Assembly (NCBI GenBank): GCA_946408355.1
Contig: CAMJRX010000008.1
Span: 1-64,000 of the forward strand
DNA length: 64,000 bases
DNA from: an uncultured Selenomonadales bacterium
Lineage (GTDB): Bacteria; Bacillota; Negativicutes; Selenomonadales; Selenomonadaceae
Direction of reading: 5' to 3'
Under the pieces are notes generated by a model, which worked only from the letters and a program-made list of their open reading frames with translations, ran no database searches and was not told the origin of the DNA. The position numbers and the translations under genes are program-made. Shown piece by piece: positions 45,796 through 56,320 of the stretch (position 1 is the stretch's first letter; each line of letters opens with the position of its first letter).

Positions 45796-45813
45796 AAATT
45801 TTTATCTTAACAG

Positions 45814-45850
45814 CGGTAAGGCTTTCGTAAAGTCTTGCCGTTTTATTTTT
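45814..45850 (+). terminator. Terminator of the heat-shock operon
   Basis: CGGTAAG and CTTGCCG form the stem (one G-U), with T-rich TTTTATTTTT after it. Confidence 0.75.
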
Positions 45851-45941
45851 GCCAACTCAACCAAAAAAGTGATAGAATTCAGCTAAAAGTGGTCTGGTAA
45901 AAAATGTAGCAGTAAATTATAATTGAATCGGAGGTGCGGCA

Positions 45942-48900
45942 ATGAAACTCGTTCAGGACTGGCAGATATTGAAACAAGGTCGTCGAATAGATTTTGCAAT
46001 AATAATCGGAATCACGCTGATATTTTTAATCGTCATAGCAATGAACGACCGCTTAATGTTTCAAGTGACCGCGAATCAAACGGAAGAAATCGGGCAAATG
46101 CAGCTGGAAGTAATTCGCTCCGACTTTCAAGGAACGTTGCAAGAGGCGGAAGGCACAACAATCCGCATGGCAATGGAAGCCGAACAGTTACTTAAAAACA
46201 AAGCCTCGCGCAAAGACATTGAAGATTATTTTTATCGTCGCAAGCGGGAACAAAAAAATTTAACGGGCGGCGTGTGTTTTAATGTCTACATAGCGGGCAA
46301 AGATTGGGCGGTCATTCCCGATTTTAATATGCCCGAAGATTATCACGCGCAAGAGCGGCTTTGGTACAAGGGCGCGTTGGAAAATCCCGGTCAAATTTAC
46401 ATAAGCGAACCATATATTGACGCGATGACGGGCATAATGTGTTATACAATATCGAAAATGTTGCCCGATAAAGAAACAGTCGTCGCACTGGATTTTAATT
46501 TCTCCGACGTGCAATATCTTATAAACCGCATGAACGAGTTGGGAAATCGCGAATCGCTGATTGTGACGAAAGACGGCATGATAATCGGCTATAGCGATAT
46601 GAATTTGGTCGGCGAAAAAATTTCACAGCAGTTGCCCGATTACGACAGCATTTTAACCCAAATTATACAGTCGAAACGTCGGGAAAGTTTTGTTGCGCAA
46701 ATTGACGGCGAGGAACGCACCATTTTTACCGGCAAGACGGATAACGATTGGTATATGATTCTCAGCGTCGACAATCAATCATTTTATAAAGATAGTTATC
46801 GGCAAATTATTTTCATGACAATATCAAGTCTGATAATGATGTTGGCGATAATTTTTTTCTACCTAAACGCAATGAAAAATGGCTTGCGTGCGGAAAATGC
46901 GTTGCGCGTCAAGGAAGAATTTTTATCGCATTTGTCAAAGGAATTACGCAATCCGTTGCAGGCGATTTTGGACGCCTCAAGCGTGAAGAGTATACATTTA
47001 CATGCAAACCCCGCAGAAAAAGCCGCCGAAGTTCGCGAGTCCGCGCTGAAACTTTCCGACATGTTAGACAATCTGTTTTCGTTCTCGACGATTGTATCCG
47101 ACGCCAAAAAAGATTTTTCGACGAGCAAAGCTTTTCAAGACGAGGAACTTTCAAAAGTCAGTCGCTACTCGAAATGGGGGATTATCACGGTATTAGTGGC
47201 GACAATGGTTTTTGCGTTCGTGATTTGTTTTAAAACGACGGTTAGTTGGGGCGATACCAAAATGAGCCGCGAGGTTGACGTTTACGAGCACAAACTTTCT
47301 AACTGGATTGAAAAGCAACGCAGTATTTTGAGCATGTTTGTAAATGTCGTGGGCGAAAATCCTGAAATTATGAACGATTACGCCTCCGCCGTAAATTTTT
47401 TGGACAATATCGCGCGGAATTATCCGGAAATTTCTGCTTGCTATTTGGCGAATCCTTACAGTGAGCACCCGCTTATAATGAATAACGGTTGGGTATCGAG
47501 CGACCCGAATTGGCATGTCGATAAGCGTCCTTGGTATATTGATACGGAAAAGTCAGCGGAAGGTTTCAGCGTCTCGGCTCCATATTACGACGCGCAAACG
47601 GGCTTGTATTGTGTGACGTTTTCGCAGATAGTTTACGGGCGCAACGGCGAATTTTTAGGCATTTTCGGTATAGATTTTTATTTGGATAGGTTGGTTCAAG
47701 TTTTGGGCGCGAGCTACACTAAAGACGGCTACGCTTTTTTAGTCGACAGGAACGGAATTATCATCAATCACCCGAACAATAATTATCAGCTATCGATGAG
47801 CCAAATGATAGACATTGCAGGCACGGAATATTCCAACGTCTATTATAGCGGCGATATTTTGACGTTAAAGGACTACACGAATAATTTTGTGGCGTGCATT
47901 TCCAAGAAGAATAAAATTTCGGACTTCACGGTTATAGTTGCTAACAGTTGGTGGAATATTTATGGTAATGTCACGCTTTTGGGCGGGCTGTTTATAATTT
48001 TGTTGGCGGCATGCGTTATAATCGTAAAGTTTTTAATAAATCGGTTGCTTAGGTGGCAAGATTCGGTTAATCAGCAGTTAAAGCAGGCGTCTAACACGGC
48101 ATTGGCGGCAAGCGAGGCTAAGTCGCAATTTTTAGCGCAAATGTCGCACGAAATCCGCACGCCAATAAACGCTATACTCGGTATGAACGAAATGATTTTG
48201 CGTGAAAGTAAATCGGCGGAGATTTTGGATTGCGCGGCAAATATTCAAAGCGCGGGGCGGACGCTTTTGGCGTTAATAAATTCAATCCTCGACTTCAGCA
48301 AGATTGAGGATGGCAAAATGGAAATAATCCCCATGCGTTACGAAACGATACATTTGCTTGACGACTTGATAAATATGATTTCGGAACGTGCAAAAAAGAA
48401 AAACTTGATACTTAAAACGGAAATATCGCCGAACTTGCCGAAAATTTTATATGGCGACGACGTGCGACTGCGGCAAGTAATCGTAAATATTTTGACGAAC
48501 GCGGTTAAATACACGCACAAAGGCTCGGTTACGTTAAAAATCGACGGGCAAGAACTCGACGCTGACACCTTTGAATTGCAAGTAAAAGTTTCGGACACGG
48601 GCATAGGAATTAGGCAGGAAGATATTCAAAAACTTTTCCAATCGTTCATACGGCTCGACGAGGAAAAAAATCGCAACATTGAGGGCACGGGGCTTGGTAT
48701 AGCGATTGTGCAAAAACTTTTGTCGATGATGGGTAGCAAGCTTGAAGTCGCTAGCGAATACGGCAAAGGCTCGGAATTTTCGTTTAAGGTGCGGCAGAAA
48801 ATTATCGACAAAACGACTTTGGGCAATTACGACGAAAATCACGCTAAAGAACTCGACAAGAAGGCTAAGAAATTTTTAACGGCGGAAGGCGCAAGAGTTT

Positions 48901-50510
48901 TGGCGGTTGACGATAATGACATGAATTTAAAAGTTATCAGTGGGTTGCTCAAGCGCAATAAAATTTTCCCCGACTTGGCTGAGAGCGGGCAAGCGGGAAT
49001 TGATATGGCTAAGGAACATTTTTATCATATAATTTTCCTCGATAACATGATGCCCGGCATGAGCGGCGTTGAAACGCTAAAGAAAATGCACGAAGAAAAA
49101 ATTTTGGGCGACAAAACAAAAGTTATAATGCTGACGGCGAGCGCGATAGCCGGTATGCGAGAAATTTTTTTACGCGAGGGCTTTGACGATTATTTAAGCA
49201 AGCCGATAGTCGTTTCAGAGTTGGAAGGCATGTTGGAAAAATATTTGCCGCCGGAGTTTATAAAGTTTGAGGAGGAAGAAACTAAAAAAGTTGAGGTCGT
49301 CGAAGAGATTAAAGCAGAACCGATTAGCGCAGACGAATTCACCAACAGCGAGAAAGAAAAATTCGCTAAAATGTGTCCTGACTTAGATTTAGAGACGGGC
49401 TTGAAATATTGCATGGGAAGTAAAGATTTTCTTTTGCAAATGTTGACGACATTCACGGACGGAAAAAAAGCCGACAAGATACAAGAAAAATTCGATGCGC
49501 AAGATTGGAAAGGTTATCAAATATTAGTCCACGCGCTCAAGTCAACGGCAATGTCAATCGGTGCGGCAACTTTAAGCGAGGCGGCTAAGGAATTAGAATT
49601 CGCCGCTAAAAACAAAGACGCAGAAAAAATTTTGGCGAATCACGCTGACTTAATGGCGACGTATAAAAAAGTTCGCGAGGAGATTGCAAAATATTTATCT
49701 GGAGCTGACGACGAGGAATCCGTTAACGCAGACGAATTCACTCGTAGCGAGAAAGAAAAATTTGCTAAAATGTGTCCTGACTTAGATTTAGAGACGGGCT
49801 TAAAATATTGCATGGGTAGCAAAGAATTTTTGTTGCAAATGTTAACGACATTCACGGACGAAAAGAAATCCTACAAGATTCAAGAAAAATTCGACGCGCA
49901 AGATTGGAAAGGTTATCAAATTTTAGTGCACGCGCTCAAGTCAACGGCAATGTCAATCGGGGCGATAAAATTAAGCGAGGCGGCTAAAGAATTAGAATTC
50001 GCCGCTAAAAATAAAGACGCGAAGAAAATTTTGGCGAATCACGCCGATTTAATGGCGACGTATAAAAAAGTTCGTGAGGAAATTGCAAAATATTTATCTG
50101 GAGCTGAAGAGGAACCCGTTAGCGCAGACGAATTCAGCAATCGCGAGAAAGAAAAATTCGCTAAAATGTGCCCAGACTTAGATTTAGAGACGGGCTTGAA
50201 ATATTGCATGGGTAGCAAAGAATTTTTGTTGCAAATGTTAACGACGTTCACGGACGAAAAGAAATCCTACAAGATTCAAGAAAAATTCGACGCGCAAGAT
50301 TGGAAAGGTTATCAAATTTTAGTGCACGCGCTCAAGTCAACGGCAATGTCAATCGGGGCGATAAAATTAAGCGAGGCGGCTAAAGAATTAGAATTCGCCG
50401 CTAAAAATAAAGACGCGAAGAAAATTTTGGCGAATCACGCCGATTTAATGGCGACGTATAAAAAAGTTCGTGAGGAAATTGCAGGGTATTTGTCGGGGGC
50501 GAGCATATGA
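45942..50510 (+). CDS. Dual-sensor hybrid histidine kinase with receiver and three Hpt domains
   Basis: A 1522-residue protein. Domain order: TM1 (about 18-37); Cache-like sensor 1 (about 45-285); TM2 (about 289-309); a degenerate HisKA whose H-box reads SKELRNPL with Lys333 where the phosphorylated histidine belongs; TM3 (about 412-430); Cache-like sensor 2 (about 440-665); TM4 (about 676-700); HisKA with His736 in MSHEIRTPIN; HATPase (about 835-955, GTGLGIAI); REC with Asp1034 in FLDNMMPG; and Hpt domains with His1197, His1330 and His1462. There is no ATPase after the first HisKA. The Hpt copies are near identical. It likely senses an external ligand and feeds phosphate to the regulators encoded downstream. 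The ATG follows GGAGGTG; the next gene overlaps by four bases. Confidence 0.92.
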   Translation: MKLVQDWQILKQGRRIDFAIIIGITLIFLIVIAMNDRLMFQVTANQTEEIGQMQLEVIRSDFQGTLQEAEGTTIRMAMEAEQLLKNKASRKDIEDYFYRRKREQKNLTGGVCFNVYIAGKDWAVIPDFNMPEDYHAQERLWYKGALENPGQIYISEPYIDAMTGIMCYTISKMLPDKETVVALDFNFSDVQYLINRMNELGNRESLIVTKDGMIIGYSDMNLVGEKISQQLPDYDSILTQIIQSKRRESFVAQIDGEERTIFTGKTDNDWYMILSVDNQSFYKDSYRQIIFMTISSLIMMLAIIFFYLNAMKNGLRAENALRVKEEFLSHLSKELRNPLQAILDASSVKSIHLHANPAEKAAEVRESALKLSDMLDNLFSFSTIVSDAKKDFSTSKAFQDEELSKVSRYSKWGIITVLVATMVFAFVICFKTTVSWGDTKMSREVDVYEHKLSNWIEKQRSILSMFVNVVGENPEIMNDYASAVNFLDNIARNYPEISACYLANPYSEHPLIMNNGWVSSDPNWHVDKRPWYIDTEKSAEGFSVSAPYYDAQTGLYCVTFSQIVYGRNGEFLGIFGIDFYLDRLVQVLGASYTKDGYAFLVDRNGIIINHPNNNYQLSMSQMIDIAGTEYSNVYYSGDILTLKDYTNNFVACISKKNKISDFTVIVANSWWNIYGNVTLLGGLFIILLAACVIIVKFLINRLLRWQDSVNQQLKQASNTALAASEAKSQFLAQMSHEIRTPINAILGMNEMILRESKSAEILDCAANIQSAGRTLLALINSILDFSKIEDGKMEIIPMRYETIHLLDDLINMISERAKKKNLILKTEISPNLPKILYGDDVRLRQVIVNILTNAVKYTHKGSVTLKIDGQELDADTFELQVKVSDTGIGIRQEDIQKLFQSFIRLDEEKNRNIEGTGLGIAIVQKLLSMMGSKLEVASEYGKGSEFSFKVRQKIIDKTTLGNYDENHAKELDKKAKKFLTAEGARVLAVDDNDMNLKVISGLLKRNKIFPDLAESGQAGIDMAKEHFYHIIFLDNMMPGMSGVETLKKMHEEKILGDKTKVIMLTASAIAGMREIFLREGFDDYLSKPIVVSELEGMLEKYLPPEFIKFEEEETKKVEVVEEIKAEPISADEFTNSEKEKFAKMCPDLDLETGLKYCMGSKDFLLQMLTTFTDGKKADKIQEKFDAQDWKGYQILVHALKSTAMSIGAATLSEAAKELEFAAKNKDAEKILANHADLMATYKKVREEIAKYLSGADDEESVNADEFTRSEKEKFAKMCPDLDLETGLKYCMGSKEFLLQMLTTFTDEKKSYKIQEKFDAQDWKGYQILVHALKSTAMSIGAIKLSEAAKELEFAAKNKDAKKILANHADLMATYKKVREEIAKYLSGAEEEPVSADEFSNREKEKFAKMCPDLDLETGLKYCMGSKEFLLQMLTTFTDEKKSYKIQEKFDAQDWKGYQILVHALKSTAMSIGAIKLSEAAKELEFAAKNKDAKKILANHADLMATYKKVREEIAGYLSGASI
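49329..50509 (+). repeat. Three tandem Hpt-coding repeats of about 396-399 bp
   Basis: Equivalent points (GCAGACGAATTC) fall at 49329, 49728 and 50124, giving periods of 399 and 396 bases. Copies two and three are almost identical at DNA level, while copy one differs at scattered, mostly silent sites. The reading frame is kept across every junction, with a short acidic linker (SGAxxEEx) at each join. Confidence 0.93.
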
Positions 50511-51778
50511 GCAAAATATTAATCGTTGATGATGATGAAATGATGTTGATGATGGCGCAGCACATATTATCGACGAAATACGAAACAATTACGGCGACGA
50601 CGGGCGAGGAAGCAATAGAAATTTTCGAGCACGAACATCCCGATATGGTGTTGTCGGATTTGATGATGCCGGAAATGGACGGCTACGAATTGCACCGAAT
50701 TTTACAGGAAAAAAGCGCGGAGCCGGTGCCTATAATGTTCATGTCGGCTGACGAAAGCGAGGAAACCGAAAGCAAAGGCTTTGAAGTCGGCGCGGAAGAT
50801 TATATCCGTAAGCCGCTAAAACCAGACGTATTATTGCGGCGCGTGGGAATTATAATCGAGCACTTAGATAAAGTTCGTGGACTTGAGACGGCGGCATCAA
50901 CTGACCAATTAACAAAACTGCTCAATAAATCGGCGTCGCAACGGGAAATCGGAGAAATGGTTAAAAACGCAAACGGTGCGTTGTTGATGATTGATTTGGA
51001 CAGTTTCAAATTGGTGAACGACATTTACGGGCATGCGGCGGGCGATAAGATTTTAATTGCGTTCGCGGAGCTGATACGGAAAATAATTCGCGAAAACGAT
51101 TTGGCGGGGCGCATGGGCGGCGACGAATTTGTTGCTTTCCTGCAAAATGTTTACGACGAAAAAATTTTAATCAGCAAAGCAAACTTTTTGAACGAACAGA
51201 TTTTAATCGCGGCAAAAAATATTCTCGGCAACGATATGCAAATTCCGTTGGGCGTGAGTATTGGCGCGGTCTTCGTGCCCGATGCGAAAAATACTTTCCA
51301 GAAACTTTACGAAAAAGCTGACAGCGCACTTTACGAAGTTAAACAGCACGGCAAGCACGGCATTTCTATTTTCAGCGAAAAACATTACGGCGCGGAAAAA
51401 ACGTCAACGGTCGAGGGAATATCGCAAATGCGCATGATTTTGGGTGAACGCAACGTCGAGGCGGGCGCGTATTTCGTAGACTTTGAAACGTTTAAAAAAA
51501 TTTATCAGCTCCTCTCGCGCATGGTCGACAATTACAAAAAAGGACTCGTGCTCATGCAGTTTACTTTGACGACGGAAAATTTTGCGGAAGAGTTTAAAGA
51601 AGTGTTGATTCATTCGTTGCGTAAAAGCGATTGCGTGACGCAGAGCGGGAAAAAATTTTTGGCGTTGCTAATGGAGGCGACAGAAATTGAATCCGACAGC
51701 GTTAAGAACAGAATTTTTTCGCGGCTGAAAAACTTTAACGCACATGAAATAACTTTCGAGCGAGAAAAAATATCTTGA
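50507..51778 (+). CDS. Response regulator with diguanylate cyclase (GGDEF) domain
   Basis: A 423-residue protein. A receiver domain (1-120) has acidic pocket VDDDE and phosphoacceptor Asp51 in LSDLMMPEMDG. A GGDEF domain (about 130-295) has an intact GGDEF at 204-208 and an RxxD inhibitory site (REND) just before, so it should make cyclic-di-GMP with product feedback. A further C-terminal stretch (about 310-423) resembles a second, worn-out GGDEF domain (LRKSDCVTQSGKKFLALL where LRxxDxxxRxGGDEF is expected). It overlaps the upstream kinase gene by four bases and is the likely output of that kinase. Confidence 0.92.
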   Translation: MSKILIVDDDEMMLMMAQHILSTKYETITATTGEEAIEIFEHEHPDMVLSDLMMPEMDGYELHRILQEKSAEPVPIMFMSADESEETESKGFEVGAEDYIRKPLKPDVLLRRVGIIIEHLDKVRGLETAASTDQLTKLLNKSASQREIGEMVKNANGALLMIDLDSFKLVNDIYGHAAGDKILIAFAELIRKIIRENDLAGRMGGDEFVAFLQNVYDEKILISKANFLNEQILIAAKNILGNDMQIPLGVSIGAVFVPDAKNTFQKLYEKADSALYEVKQHGKHGISIFSEKHYGAEKTSTVEGISQMRMILGERNVEAGAYFVDFETFKKIYQLLSRMVDNYKKGLVLMQFTLTTENFAEEFKEVLIHSLRKSDCVTQSGKKFLALLMEATEIESDSVKNRIFSRLKNFNAHEITFEREKIS

Positions 51779-51788
51779 GGTTGAGGCG

Positions 51789-52895
51789 ATGAAATTTGTA
51801 AATATTAAAAATTTTAATTTGCTGGTGGCGATTGCCGCATTTTTAATAATCGTGTTGCCCGCGATGATGTTTTTAAATTTCAACGAGGAATTCGCGGAAC
51901 GTAAAGAAAAAATCGGCTTTATAATTTTGGGCGATATAACAATTCCGGGTTGGAACGAATCGCAATATAAAGGCATTAAGGCGGCTTGCGAGGAATTCGG
52001 CGTGGAATTGCTCGTTCGCGACAAAGTTAAGGAAAATAGCGGACAATGCACAGAGGCGATAAAAAATTTGGTTAATAATGGCGCGGGCATGATTTTTCTT
52101 GCGAGCTATTCTTATTCGATTGAGGCGCAAAATATAATCGGCGAATATCCGCACGTGGCTTTTGCGACGAATTCGGCTGAAGTTCATGCCAAAAATATGA
52201 CGGCGTATTTTGCCCGCATGTACCAGGCGCGGTATTTGTCGGGAGCTTTAGCGGGCATGAGGACAAAATCAAACGTAATCGGCTACGTGGCGGCAATGTC
52301 CAATACAGAAGTTAATCGCGGGATAAATGCGTTTACGTTGGGCGTTCAAAGAACTAATCCGCAAGCAAAAGTTGTAGTCATGTGGACTGGAGCTTGGCAA
52401 GACGAGAAAATTGAGGCTCAACACGCGGAACGGCTGATAAAAGAGGCGGGCGCAGACGTTTTAACTTATCACCAAGACGAAGACGCGACCGCGCAGGTTG
52501 CAGAAAAATTCGGCGCAGATTTCATTGCCTACAACGCGATTTTAGATACCAAGTCGGAGCATTATTTAACGTCGGTTATCTGCCGTTGGAACTTGTATTA
52601 TTCGGACATGATTCAACGGTACTTGAAAGGCGAAATAAATTCTGTAAAAAATCATTGGCTGGGCATAGAGCGCGGCGCAGTAATGTTATCGGAGTTTTCG
52701 CCGGCAGTAACAGAAAAAATGATTACGCGGCTAGAGTCGCTTAAGCAAGAACTTGTTAACGGCAACTTGATTTTCGCGGGAGAAATTTACGACAACACGG
52801 GCAAAATCCGTTGCGCGGCGGGTGAGGCGATTAGCGACGATACTTTATTGGAAGATATAAATTGGCTCGTGAAAGGAGTTGAGGTTCTTGAATGA
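51789..52895 (+). CDS. BMP-family substrate-binding protein, membrane anchored
   Basis: A 368-residue protein of the basic membrane protein (Med/PnrA/BMP) family, which in ABC systems binds nucleosides. One N-terminal hydrophobic segment (about 11-30) has no lipobox cysteine, so it is an uncleaved anchor or signal peptide. The fold is visible in IGFIILGDITIPGWNESQYKG (in two parts: IGFIILGDI, then PGWNESQYKG), GAGMIFLASYSY, ARYLSGALAGMRTKSNVIGY and VMWTGAW. No ABC ATPase or permease is adjacent. It sits between a REC-GGDEF gene and a hybrid kinase gene. I infer that it is the ligand-binding partner of one of the kinases rather than a transporter part. Confidence 0.82.
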   Translation: MKFVNIKNFNLLVAIAAFLIIVLPAMMFLNFNEEFAERKEKIGFIILGDITIPGWNESQYKGIKAACEEFGVELLVRDKVKENSGQCTEAIKNLVNNGAGMIFLASYSYSIEAQNIIGEYPHVAFATNSAEVHAKNMTAYFARMYQARYLSGALAGMRTKSNVIGYVAAMSNTEVNRGINAFTLGVQRTNPQAKVVVMWTGAWQDEKIEAQHAERLIKEAGADVLTYHQDEDATAQVAEKFGADFIAYNAILDTKSEHYLTSVICRWNLYYSDMIQRYLKGEINSVKNHWLGIERGAVMLSEFSPAVTEKMITRLESLKQELVNGNLIFAGEIYDNTGKIRCAAGEAISDDTLLEDINWLVKGVEVLE

Positions 52896-55422
52896 GGGCG
52901 GCTTTTCATTGAGCAAAAAATATATCAAGAAAATAATTTTGCAATTTGCGACGGTGCTAACGATTTTACTGTTAACGGGATTTTTCATGCGCATGGAAGT
53001 TAGAGACTTGCTGAACACGACGCTAGAAAAAACAATGGCAAAACAGGCGGCAGATTTATCAATCGTGGCGGAAGAAAGATTTGCTAAGGAATTGGCGGAG
53101 TTGCGATTGGCGGCAAAATATTTGGAGTTGCACCCGAACGCAACGACGGAAGAAAATTTTTTGTCGATTTTAAAGGCTGGCAATGAAAATATTTCGGTCG
53201 GGCTGTTGAAATTGGACGGCAAAGCTATTCACGGAAAAATTTTGTCGAAGTGGGATTTTTTGCGGCTCACGTCGGCATATCGCGGAAATGAGGTTGTAGA
53301 CTACTGCGCGGGCAAAGGATTATTATTTGCGGTTCCGGTCATGCGCGGCGGCAACGTTCAAGCGGCTATTTATCGCCTTTACGACGACAAACTTTTGACG
53401 GATTTGTTTGGGCTTGCCGAATATAGTTCTGACACGCGGCTTTTGATTCAAGAGCGCAACGGGCAAATTATCATTCCGTACAAAGATTATGGCGAGGCTG
53501 ATAAAAAATTTTTCCTAAATGCGACGATTCAGCACGGCTTTAAAATTATTCGCGACAAATTGAGTACTCACCGTTCAGCGGCGGTTTATCGTGACAGTTC
53601 GCTTGGAGAATTTTTTCTATTCGCGACTGACTTGCCGCAGACGAATTGCACGATGATAGGCTTTGTTCCTTGGGCGGCGGTTGCAGGCGACATTTTTAGG
53701 ATTTATACGCTTTTATTGAGCGGCGGGACGTTAATGTTGCTGATATTGGCATTAGTTAGCGCGTATTTGTTTGTAGTTCGGACAAAGGCGGAGGAAAGCG
53801 ACGCCTTGCGCGAGGCAAAACAGGCGGCAGAAGATGCCAATAACGCCAAAAGTATTTTCCTTGCCAACATGAGCCACGAAATTAGAACGCCGATTAACGC
53901 GATTATCGGTATGAACGAAATGATTCTGCGCGAAAGTCAAAATCCCAAAATTATAGACTACGCGCAAAATTCTTCCGCCGCGAGTGAAACTTTGCTGTCG
54001 CTTATAAATGATATTCTGGACTTTTCTAAGATTGAGAGCGGCAAATTTGAACTCGTGCCTGAAAATTACAAGCTTAGCGAAGTTATTAAAAATCTCGTCA
54101 ACATGATGCGCCCGCGTGCCGAAAAGAAAAATTTGGCGTTCACGGTGCAAGTTAATCCTAACACGGAAAATCTTTTGTTCGGCGATTCGGTTCGAGTTCG
54201 GCAAATCGTGATAAATTTTTTGAGCAACGCCGTTAAGTATACGCGGGTCGGCAGTGTGGAATTTATCGTTGACGGCGAAAAAATTTCCGACGACAAAATT
54301 AATTTAAAATTTACGGTTAAGGATACGGGCATTGGCATTCACGAGGAAGATATTCCGAAACTTTTTAACGACTTTGAACGATTCGACGCCAAAAAAAATA
54401 AAAATATCGAGGGCACGGGCTTAGGGCTTGCGATAACTCAAAAACTCGTTGAGATGATGAACGGCAAAATTGAAGTGCAAAGCGTTTACGGCGAAGGCTC
54501 AATGTTTACAGTAATCTTGCCGCAAAAAATTGTTGGCAACGAGCTAATCGGCAAAATCGAGGAAAAACCTCACGCCGCGCAGGAAAAATATCAGCCGTCA
54601 TTTATTGCCCCCGACGCAGATATTTTAGTTGTCGACGATAACGAAATGAATTTGCTGGTCGCGACAAATTTGCTAAAGGCGACGCAAGTAAAAGTCGATA
54701 CGGCGTTGAGCGGCATGTCTTGCCTAAAAAAATTGGCGGAGCGTCATTACGATTTAATTTTGCTTGACCAGATGATGCCGAGTTTGGACGGCGTGCAAAC
54801 GCTAAAAATGGCGCGAGCAATGGAAGATAATTTGAGCAAAGACGTACCGATAATCGCGTTGACGGCGAACGCAATATCCGGGACGCGGGAAAAACTAATC
54901 GCCGAAGGTTTCACAGATTATTTGAGCAAACCTATCGACGTAAAATTAATGGAGAAAATGCTTATGAATTATTTACCGGCAGAAAAAGTTTTGTCGTCGA
55001 CGCAAGAAAAAATTTCGGCGGCAGAAAAGCCTTCCGAGCCAGTCAGCGACTTAATCAACGTGGAAAAGGGCTTGGAGTATAGCGCGGGCATGACGGATTT
55101 TTACAAGGAATTTTTATTAAAGTTCGTAAGCTTGAAGGCAGAAAAACAACAGAAATTGCAAGCGACTTTCGAGGCGGGCGACTGGAAAAATTATACAATT
55201 TGCGTTCACGCGCTCAAGTCAACGGCGTTATCAATCGGCGGCGAAAAAACTTCAGAGGCGGCAAAAGAATTGGAGAAAGCCGGAAAAATTTTAATGGCGG
55301 CAACAAGTTCCGAGCTTGAAAAACAGGAGAGCGCGGACTTTATAAATAAGAATCACGCGGCGGCAATGAAACTTTACGACGCATTGGCGGCAGAGGCAGA
55401 AAAACTTGCCGAGACACTTTAA
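52888..55422 (+). CDS. Hybrid histidine kinase with receiver and Hpt domain
   Basis: An 844-residue protein. TM1 (about 12-34), an extracytoplasmic sensor (about 35-270) and TM2 (about 278-302) lead to a HisKA with His330 in MSHEIRTPIN. A HATPase (GTGLGLAI), a REC with Asp627 in LLDQMMPS, and an Hpt with His774 in VHALKSTAL follow. The start is uncertain: a TTG at 52888 has good spacing to AAAGGAG (52872-52878), while a TTG at 52879 is too close. It overlaps the BMP gene end by eight bases, so the binding protein and this kinase are translationally coupled. Confidence 0.9.
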   Translation: MNEGGFSLSKKYIKKIILQFATVLTILLLTGFFMRMEVRDLLNTTLEKTMAKQAADLSIVAEERFAKELAELRLAAKYLELHPNATTEENFLSILKAGNENISVGLLKLDGKAIHGKILSKWDFLRLTSAYRGNEVVDYCAGKGLLFAVPVMRGGNVQAAIYRLYDDKLLTDLFGLAEYSSDTRLLIQERNGQIIIPYKDYGEADKKFFLNATIQHGFKIIRDKLSTHRSAAVYRDSSLGEFFLFATDLPQTNCTMIGFVPWAAVAGDIFRIYTLLLSGGTLMLLILALVSAYLFVVRTKAEESDALREAKQAAEDANNAKSIFLANMSHEIRTPINAIIGMNEMILRESQNPKIIDYAQNSSAASETLLSLINDILDFSKIESGKFELVPENYKLSEVIKNLVNMMRPRAEKKNLAFTVQVNPNTENLLFGDSVRVRQIVINFLSNAVKYTRVGSVEFIVDGEKISDDKINLKFTVKDTGIGIHEEDIPKLFNDFERFDAKKNKNIEGTGLGLAITQKLVEMMNGKIEVQSVYGEGSMFTVILPQKIVGNELIGKIEEKPHAAQEKYQPSFIAPDADILVVDDNEMNLLVATNLLKATQVKVDTALSGMSCLKKLAERHYDLILLDQMMPSLDGVQTLKMARAMEDNLSKDVPIIALTANAISGTREKLIAEGFTDYLSKPIDVKLMEKMLMNYLPAEKVLSSTQEKISAAEKPSEPVSDLINVEKGLEYSAGMTDFYKEFLLKFVSLKAEKQQKLQATFEAGDWKNYTICVHALKSTALSIGGEKTSEAAKELEKAGKILMAATSSELEKQESADFINKNHAAAMKLYDALAAEAEKLAETL

Positions 55423-55440
55423 ACTTTGGAGGGATAAATC

Positions 55441-56265
55441 ATGCGTAAAAAAACCGTTTTAGTAATTGACGATGACGAAATGAATTTGCAAATCGCAAAA
55501 ATGATTTTGGAAAAAAGATTGCCGTGCGAGGTAATTGGCGCGGATAACGGCGTCGAGGGCATAGACATTTTAAAAAGTCAGCGCGTGAGCCTCGTATTAC
55601 TTGATGTGATGATGCCGGATTTCGACGGGATAGAGACGTTGCAGGAAATTCGCAACGACGCGCAGATTAAAGACGTGCCAGTCATGATGTTAACGGCGTC
55701 GGTTGATGTGGAAACTGTACAAAAGGCTGGGGCATTGGGCGTTAAAGATTACATAAGGAAGCCGTTCTTGCCCGCCGATTTAATTGAGCGCGTCAATAGA
55801 AAACTTGTCGAAATTCATTCCGAAGAAATTTTACTGCTCGGCGACAACGAATCAGTTTTAAAGTCCATGCAAAGCATTATCGAGGACAATTTCCCGCACG
55901 AGGCATTAATCGCGACAACGACGACGGAGGCAGAAAAAATTTTGCAAGAGGTGGATATAGATTTGATAATCGCCTGCGCGGACATGAAATTTATCGACGG
56001 ATTTAGATTTTTATCGCTGGTAGCGTCGGAGGAAAAATTCAGTGATAAGCCGTTCGCGATAACGACGCCTGACAAAATCCGCGAATTCATTAACAAGTTA
56101 TCATCGCCTGGAGTGATTGAGGAACCACCCGTTGAAGAAACACCTGCCGAAGTTGAAGAGCCGCAAGCCGTCATGAAAATTGCGGAATCGGTTATTGTGC
56201 GTCCTAAAAAAAGCAAGCTTGCAAACGTCGTGACGAATTTAATCGGCTATCAGAAAATTACATAG
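55441..56265 (+). CDS. Response regulator with one intact and one degenerate receiver domain
   Basis: A 274-residue protein. The first REC (about 1-125) has VIDDDE, LLDVMMPDFDG with the phosphoacceptor near residue 54, and the lysine in RKPF. The second (about 128-215) keeps the receiver pattern (LLGDNESVLKSM, then LIIACADMKFIDG), but a cysteine replaces the aspartate. The C-terminal tail is acidic and proline-rich, then basic. No DNA-binding or enzymatic output domain is visible, so it may act by protein contact or as a phosphate sink. It is the last gene of the cluster, before a strong terminator. Confidence 0.87.
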   Translation: MRKKTVLVIDDDEMNLQIAKMILEKRLPCEVIGADNGVEGIDILKSQRVSLVLLDVMMPDFDGIETLQEIRNDAQIKDVPVMMLTASVDVETVQKAGALGVKDYIRKPFLPADLIERVNRKLVEIHSEEILLLGDNESVLKSMQSIIEDNFPHEALIATTTTEAEKILQEVDIDLIIACADMKFIDGFRFLSLVASEEKFSDKPFAITTPDKIREFINKLSSPGVIEEPPVEETPAEVEEPQAVMKIAESVIVRPKKSKLANVVTNLIGYQKIT

Positions 56266-56288: not shown

Positions 56289-56320
56289 ACCCCTGCCGTT
56301 AACGCAGGGGTATTTTTTTG
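56289..56320 (+). terminator. Terminator of the signalling cluster
   Basis: ACCCCTGC and GCAGGGGT form a perfect eight-base stem around CGTTAAC, followed by ATTTTTTT. Confidence 0.9.

Follow-up and report, generated by a model that had tools for sequence, protein, structure and literature searches.

A BMP-family binding protein encoded in a five-gene operon of a Quinella-like Selenomonadaceae bacterium from the rumen is probably a membrane-tethered periplasmic receptor that serves signalling only, most likely with a purine base as its ligand, and that docks on the hybrid kinase encoded directly downstream and relays to cyclic-di-GMP (c-di-GMP). The operon lies in a window of 64,000 nucleotides (the whole stretch of DNA that was analysed) from a genome of 2.45 Mb in 85 contigs that is 84% complete. 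A preliminary description of this DNA had proposed that a BMP protein, encoded with two hybrid kinases and a diguanylate cyclase, was repurposed from transport to sensing, and this is supported by its fixed linkage to a kinase and by the lack of an ABC partner.

The operon comprises five ORFs on the forward (+) strand, all of which translate without interruption and were assigned with Pfam. Gene 1 (45942..50510) encodes a hybrid kinase of 1522 aa, gene 2 (50507..51778) a REC-GGDEF diguanylate cyclase, gene 3 (51789..52895) the BMP-family (PF02608) binding protein, gene 4 (52879..55422) the hybrid kinase that is the putative BMP partner, and gene 5 (55441..56265) a REC protein with a degenerate second REC. 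Genes 1 and 2 overlap by 4 nt, and gaps of 10 nt and 18 nt separate genes 2 and 3 and genes 4 and 5, respectively. The BMP stop codon lies inside the gene 4 start region, with an overlap of 8-17 nt depending on the choice of start (TTG 52879, or more likely TTG 52888, which has the better ribosome-site spacing). A terminator-like hairpin 3' of dnaJ (45812..45842, +) forms the upstream boundary, followed by a promoter-like site (45849..45878, +; a consensus match only, 10 of 12, with an extended -10 TG), and a strong terminator-like hairpin with a T run (56289..56311, +) closes the unit. The overlaps, together with the terminator and promoter consensus matches, support transcription of the five genes as one unit. 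The compact, unidirectional and terminated arrangement is thus as first described, with a further hairpin upstream. Also as first described, no ATPase or permease is encoded within the five-gene cluster. The Pfam model finds no second BMP gene in the source genome at its 84% completeness. An Rfam scan of the window gave tRNA and tmRNA matches only, with no purine or c-di-GMP riboswitch near the operon, and no riboswitch was found near the BMP-kinase pair in 15 relatives; a c-di-GMP-I riboswitch search of the genome is uninformative, being silent in every control genome too.

An alignment of the gene 4 sensor region was used as the query in a scan of 84,980 species genomes, which returned 66 loci, all in Selenomonadaceae or Lachnospiraceae except for one from Veillonellaceae and two in records labelled Bacteroides and Eubacterium. 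Every locus with upstream sequence (65/65) has a BMP gene immediately before the kinase gene on the same strand, usually with an overlap of 8-38 nt. This adjacency is not chance, and the concern raised in the preliminary description, that the homologues might usually be unlinked, did not materialize. Seven other contigs (L064, L066, L069, L070, L071, L074 and L078) have all five genes in this order, with several further candidates interrupted by contig ends. Those relatives that bear names belong to Selenomonadaceae, come mainly from rumen and gut and include one called Quinella. Two loci (L072 and L075) carry the pair and the REC-GGDEF gene without the tandem-dCache kinase of gene 1, and many relatives carry the BMP-kinase pair alone. 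Because the full order is found in close relatives and the pair alone in many, the pair is the invariant core and the five-gene set a later, Quinella-type elaboration; conservation of the five-gene order holds for close relatives and not beyond them. The BMP is missing from about half of the congeneric genomes, many of which are incomplete. At one locus (L047:9455-11057) BMP and kinase are both broken and the genes for the tandem-dCache kinase, REC-GGDEF and REC-REC are open, as if the pair had been lost together.

The gene 1 kinase has the Pfam domain order dCache - HisKA remnant - dCache - HisKA - HATPase - REC - three Hpt (two matches each to dCache_1 and HisKA). The first HisKA is without its own ATPase domain and has Lys in place of His, a position occupied by Lys, Arg or His in relatives. 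The three Hpt domains (window positions 49350-50500) are near-identical, copies 2 and 3 being 98% identical in DNA, and are the product of a recent tandem triplication: three are found only in the window and in the nearest relative (L037), and one at other loci. Both dCaches carry, by eye, R-x-W-Y and the downstream Y and D of the amino-acid motif Y-R-W-Y-Y-D (dCache_1AA), of which we take R126 to be part; the Y121 position is Y in dCache 1 and W in dCache 2. Given these amino-acid-type Cache motifs, the gene 1 kinase probably senses something other than the BMP ligand directly, likely amino acids.

The gene 2 protein has the sequence features of an active diguanylate cyclase, with GGDEF and the RxxD I-site intact, and its GGDEF and REC phospho-acceptor Asp are kept in all 14 homologues aligned; it also carries a conserved tail of ~130 aa that to the eye resembles a degenerate GGDEF. 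Gene 5 encodes two REC stretches, the second without the phospho-acceptor Asp, and no output domain. c-di-GMP enzymes recur beside the BMP-kinase pair: REC-GGDEF in the window, its relatives and L153, an EAL gene at L089, L152 and L168, and REC-HD-GYP at L092, L093, L148, L142 and L159. Domain matches in the source genome amount to 9 GGDEF, 3 EAL and 1 HD_5, and no PilZ or MshEN effectors were found there, a point against the proposed reading. The gene set probably turns outside nutrients into a c-di-GMP signal. The alternative that two systems share one operon, the BMP-kinase pair on the one hand and the tandem-dCache kinase with REC-GGDEF on the other, is on the unlikely side: it would account for the many relatives with the pair but without the other three genes, for the differing sensor types of the two kinases and for the loci L072 and L075, where REC-GGDEF accompanies the pair and the tandem kinase is lacking, but in all eight genomes with the five genes their order and tight spacing are preserved, and REC-GGDEF and the pair occur together in another genus (L153).

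The gene 4 kinase has the domain order sensor - HisKA - HATPase - REC - Hpt. Its sensor region matches no family even at E 10, which rules out a known Pfam family, and matches nothing in the PDB by sequence, all matches being by fold alone. The AF2 model of the sensor (pLDDT 83) has a double Cache fold and aligns with PctA (Z 15.7, 215 residues, 3.2 A) and with the sensor of KinD (Z 13.6). The fold-match lists are filled by chemoreceptor dCaches, and LuxQ is not among the matches listed, which excludes nothing. The R-x-W-[YF] signature is found in none of the homologues of this sensor (0/63). Its absence here and presence in gene 1 fit a division of labour in which gene 4 would sense through the BMP and gene 1 directly. 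Once kinase-core and REC/Hpt distance is removed, BMP distance correlates with sensor distance (partial r 0.70, 55 pairs) and does so after thinning (partial r 0.72, permutation p 0.001), whereas the correlation of BMP with kinase core given the sensor is about 0, even though sensor and core belong to one gene. This paired divergence favours contact between BMP and sensor, supporting it without proving it.

Gene 3 matches the Pfam Bmp family (PF02608) with 155.9 bits (cut-off 24.1, E 1.5e-45), and all best fold matches of its AF model (pLDDT 91) are BMPs, the first being AtzT (TM 0.82). The protein is thus a PF02608 member by fold, which does not itself imply a transport role. AtzT and the Brucella protein 3s99 are its closest solved relatives (31-32% identity). 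Guanine is held in AtzT by a Tyr45/Trp194 sandwich, Ser97, the Phe98 backbone, Glu165, Asn218 and Asn220 (PMC6834077). Gene 3 has this pattern (Tyr/Trp45-Trp194 sandwich, Ser97, Glu165, polar 218/220) in the residues W55, S106, Y107, E174, W203, H228 and D230, a pocket identical to that of 3s99 save Tyr for Phe at 107 and the same in most close relatives. The first-shell purine contacts of AtzT and 3s99 are thus shared, although these two are taken as importer binding proteins and the gene 3 BMP is membrane-anchored without an importer. Because the purine-contacting residues of AtzT are kept, the ligand is likely a purine base, and the pocket resembles the nucleobase type (AtzT, 3s99) more closely than the nucleoside type. 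The preliminary suggestion of an extracellular solute, possibly a nucleoside, is refined accordingly.

Farther kinase-linked BMPs have Asn or Gly at the Ser pocket position, and in some tandem sets the pocket is gone from one of the two BMPs. Since pocket positions are altered in these more distant proteins, the ligand may vary across the family. The same alterations, the PTS EIIC neighbours of many relatives, which could suggest a sugar-like ligand, and the sugars predicted for most Bmp members of the model strains of PMC9602780 would also suit a BMP that acts on the kinase without a purine, either with another ligand (a sugar or an amino compound) or as a ligand-independent activator or scaffold. 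We consider this unlikely for the window protein, whose pocket matches that of AtzT and 3s99 in its aromatic sandwich, in Ser and Glu and at the H-x-D positions; ABC-linked BMPs of the class match these positions too. A purine ligand is therefore retained as the preferred reading. At L116-L122 the first BMP is without the purine pocket and the second retains most of it, a possible two-BMP receptor.

Gene 3 has an N-terminal membrane anchor and no lipobox. The N terminus of kinase-linked BMPs forms a hydrophobic helix that lacks a true lipobox, i.e. an anchor of the uncleaved type; a few carry LGGC, but inside a helix that continues. ABC-linked BMPs have a lipobox with hydrophilic sequence immediately after it. 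The reverse search, for BMPs across the class, gave 40 neighbourhoods that were read, in 35 of which the BMP gene is directly upstream of a kinase with a gene 4-type sensor. Other receptor types are found at L161:9598-13090 (a dCache-GGDEF-EAL gene directly downstream of the BMP), L170:6931-10355 (a GGDEF-EAL gene immediately upstream, with weak similarity to the sensor), L171:379-5126 (a propeller/YYY HD-GYP gene, beta-propeller) and L176:7531-10519 (a single-Cache chemoreceptor gene), and a single neighbourhood, from another family (L178), has an ABC importer. Most of the BMPs examined from other families of the class are lipoproteins whose genes accompany those for an ATPase and a permease, as confirmed by Pfam at L051 and read from the matching layout at L052, L053 and L055. 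No kinase-linked locus has an ABC partner; an importer operon is lacking for gene 3 and its kinase-linked relatives alike, and the BMP is not always found with an ABC importer, the other outcome that the preliminary description had set against its proposal.

A tree of 71 BMP rows, which is a quick tree with some long branches, parts all receptor-linked BMPs from ABC-linked ones by a branch with 99% SH-aLRT support. The receptor side also takes in L057-L059, three BMPs from the genus of the window that adjoin no kinase and no importer. That the BMP is still a transport protein, with its ABC importer elsewhere in the genome and its kinase link a matter of uptake control, is very unlikely: ABC importers are the usual partners of the family, the genome encodes a purine permease (Xan_ur) elsewhere and an importer may be missing from an assembly 84% complete, but a remote importer was rejected as the partner in view of the lack of any other BMP in the genome and of any importer at kinase-linked loci, ABC-linked BMPs are lipoproteins on a separate branch, the BMP diverges with the sensor domain and not the kinase core, and BMPs of the same branch adjoin other receptor types. 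The BMP-like protein of L057 (L057:7247-11102) is encoded with a radical SAM gene on one side and, on the other, a cdaA/ybbR pair for c-di-AMP synthesis.

From gene content, order and linkage, the anchor, the pocket and catalytic residues and the paired divergence, all read from the sequence, we infer a ligand, a BMP-sensor contact, phosphotransfer pairs and a rise in c-di-GMP, arranged as follows. The BMP, ligand-loaded or empty, would dock on the double-Cache periplasmic domain of gene 4 and set its activity. Phosphate would then pass by the route His - REC - Hpt to the stand-alone receivers of the same operon (REC-GGDEF and REC-pseudoREC), and REC-GGDEF would make c-di-GMP. Gene 1, whose two dCaches are of the amino-acid type, probably contributes another nutrient cue and would feed the same receivers via Hpt.

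Binding proteins that drive a kinase are known from LuxPQ, TorTS, XylFII-LytS and Med-KinD. To our knowledge Med-KinD is the one precedent that pairs a BMP-fold protein with a dCache kinase. Banse, Hobbs and Losick are said to have found in 2011 that Med is needed by the dCache histidine kinase KinD of Bacillus subtilis; Med presumably has the BMP fold, to judge from structure 2hqb (B. halodurans), and we take med and kinD to be non-adjacent. The sensor of KinD is among the gene 4 fold matches. However, Med is described as a lipoprotein and feeds Spo0A, whereas gene 3 is without a lipobox and the operon outputs are receiver and GGDEF proteins, and the Med pocket differs from that of gene 3 at the His-x-Asp positions. 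We propose a similar likeness to the AI-2 receptor LuxP-LuxQ of Vibrio, in which a periplasmic binding protein acts on a double-PDC/dCache hybrid kinase and whose genes, luxP and luxQ, are presumably adjacent. Here too the binding-protein gene is fixed beside that of a kinase with a periplasmic sensor (65/65 loci), and the AF2 model and fold matches predict a double PDC/dCache sensor. LuxP, however, belongs to another binding-protein family, whereas gene 3 is a BMP with a membrane anchor and a purine pocket, and the LuxPQ output is Hpt and a transcription factor, while the local output here is REC-GGDEF. LuxP docks on this double-PDC hybrid kinase, and the LuxQ dCache does not bind the signal itself (PMC8534201).

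Among Clostridia, the CuaD gene adjoins those of its kinase and regulator in CuaD-CuaSR (PMC10384115), and XylFII-LytS is a binding protein and kinase system (PMC9602780). Both resemble the present pair as three-component systems, but have sugar ligands and other binding-protein families, and CuaDSR has a transcriptional output. Purine sensing is tied to kinases and c-di-GMP enzymes in dCache_1PU also (PMC11245519), where the purine is bound by the Cache itself; in the present system that role is proposed for the BMP, the partner Cache being without R-x-W-Y. Receptors driven by SBPs are widespread (PMC9602780, PMC11113362). In the literature outside most subscription journals, no paper was found that names a BMP-family protein as the partner of an adjacent kinase, or that names this system. 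The precedents make the principle less new than the preliminary description supposed. What sets the present case apart from them is the membrane-tethered BMP with a purine pocket, the fixed pair across two families, the non-Pfam sensor and the c-di-GMP neighbours.

More tentatively, and with somewhat more doubt than conviction, we suggest an undescribed receptor class across Selenomonadaceae and Lachnospiraceae, in which membrane-tethered BMPs, some in ancient two-BMP sets, would detect purines outside the cell on behalf of dCache kinases, of dCache-GGDEF-EAL proteins and perhaps of chemoreceptors. c-di-GMP enzymes would be the recurrent output, and Quinella-type cells would combine the purine cue with one for amino acids from the tandem-dCache kinase. 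If the proposed receptor role is right, the BMP family, known for importer proteins, also has a signalling branch, and a function is provided for many proteins annotated as importer components and for a sensor without a Pfam match. Rumen and gut bacteria would also gain an identifiable outside cue for c-di-GMP signalling, probably purines, which abound where the nucleic acid of microbes is turned over.

A second BMP in tandem occurs at 19 loci, mainly in Lachnospiraceae. The tandem BMPs fall in two clades, each of which spans Lachnospiraceae and other Selenomonadaceae, thus pointing to an old duplication. Tandem pairs precede the kinase at, for example, L092, L093, L141, L143, L149, L153 and L160. 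A PTS EIIC gene lies directly upstream of the BMP-kinase pair in a second clade, at L109, L118, L125, L144, L147, L150, L154, L155, L158, L163 and L166, and these PTS EIIC genes are often preceded by a short stand-alone receiver.
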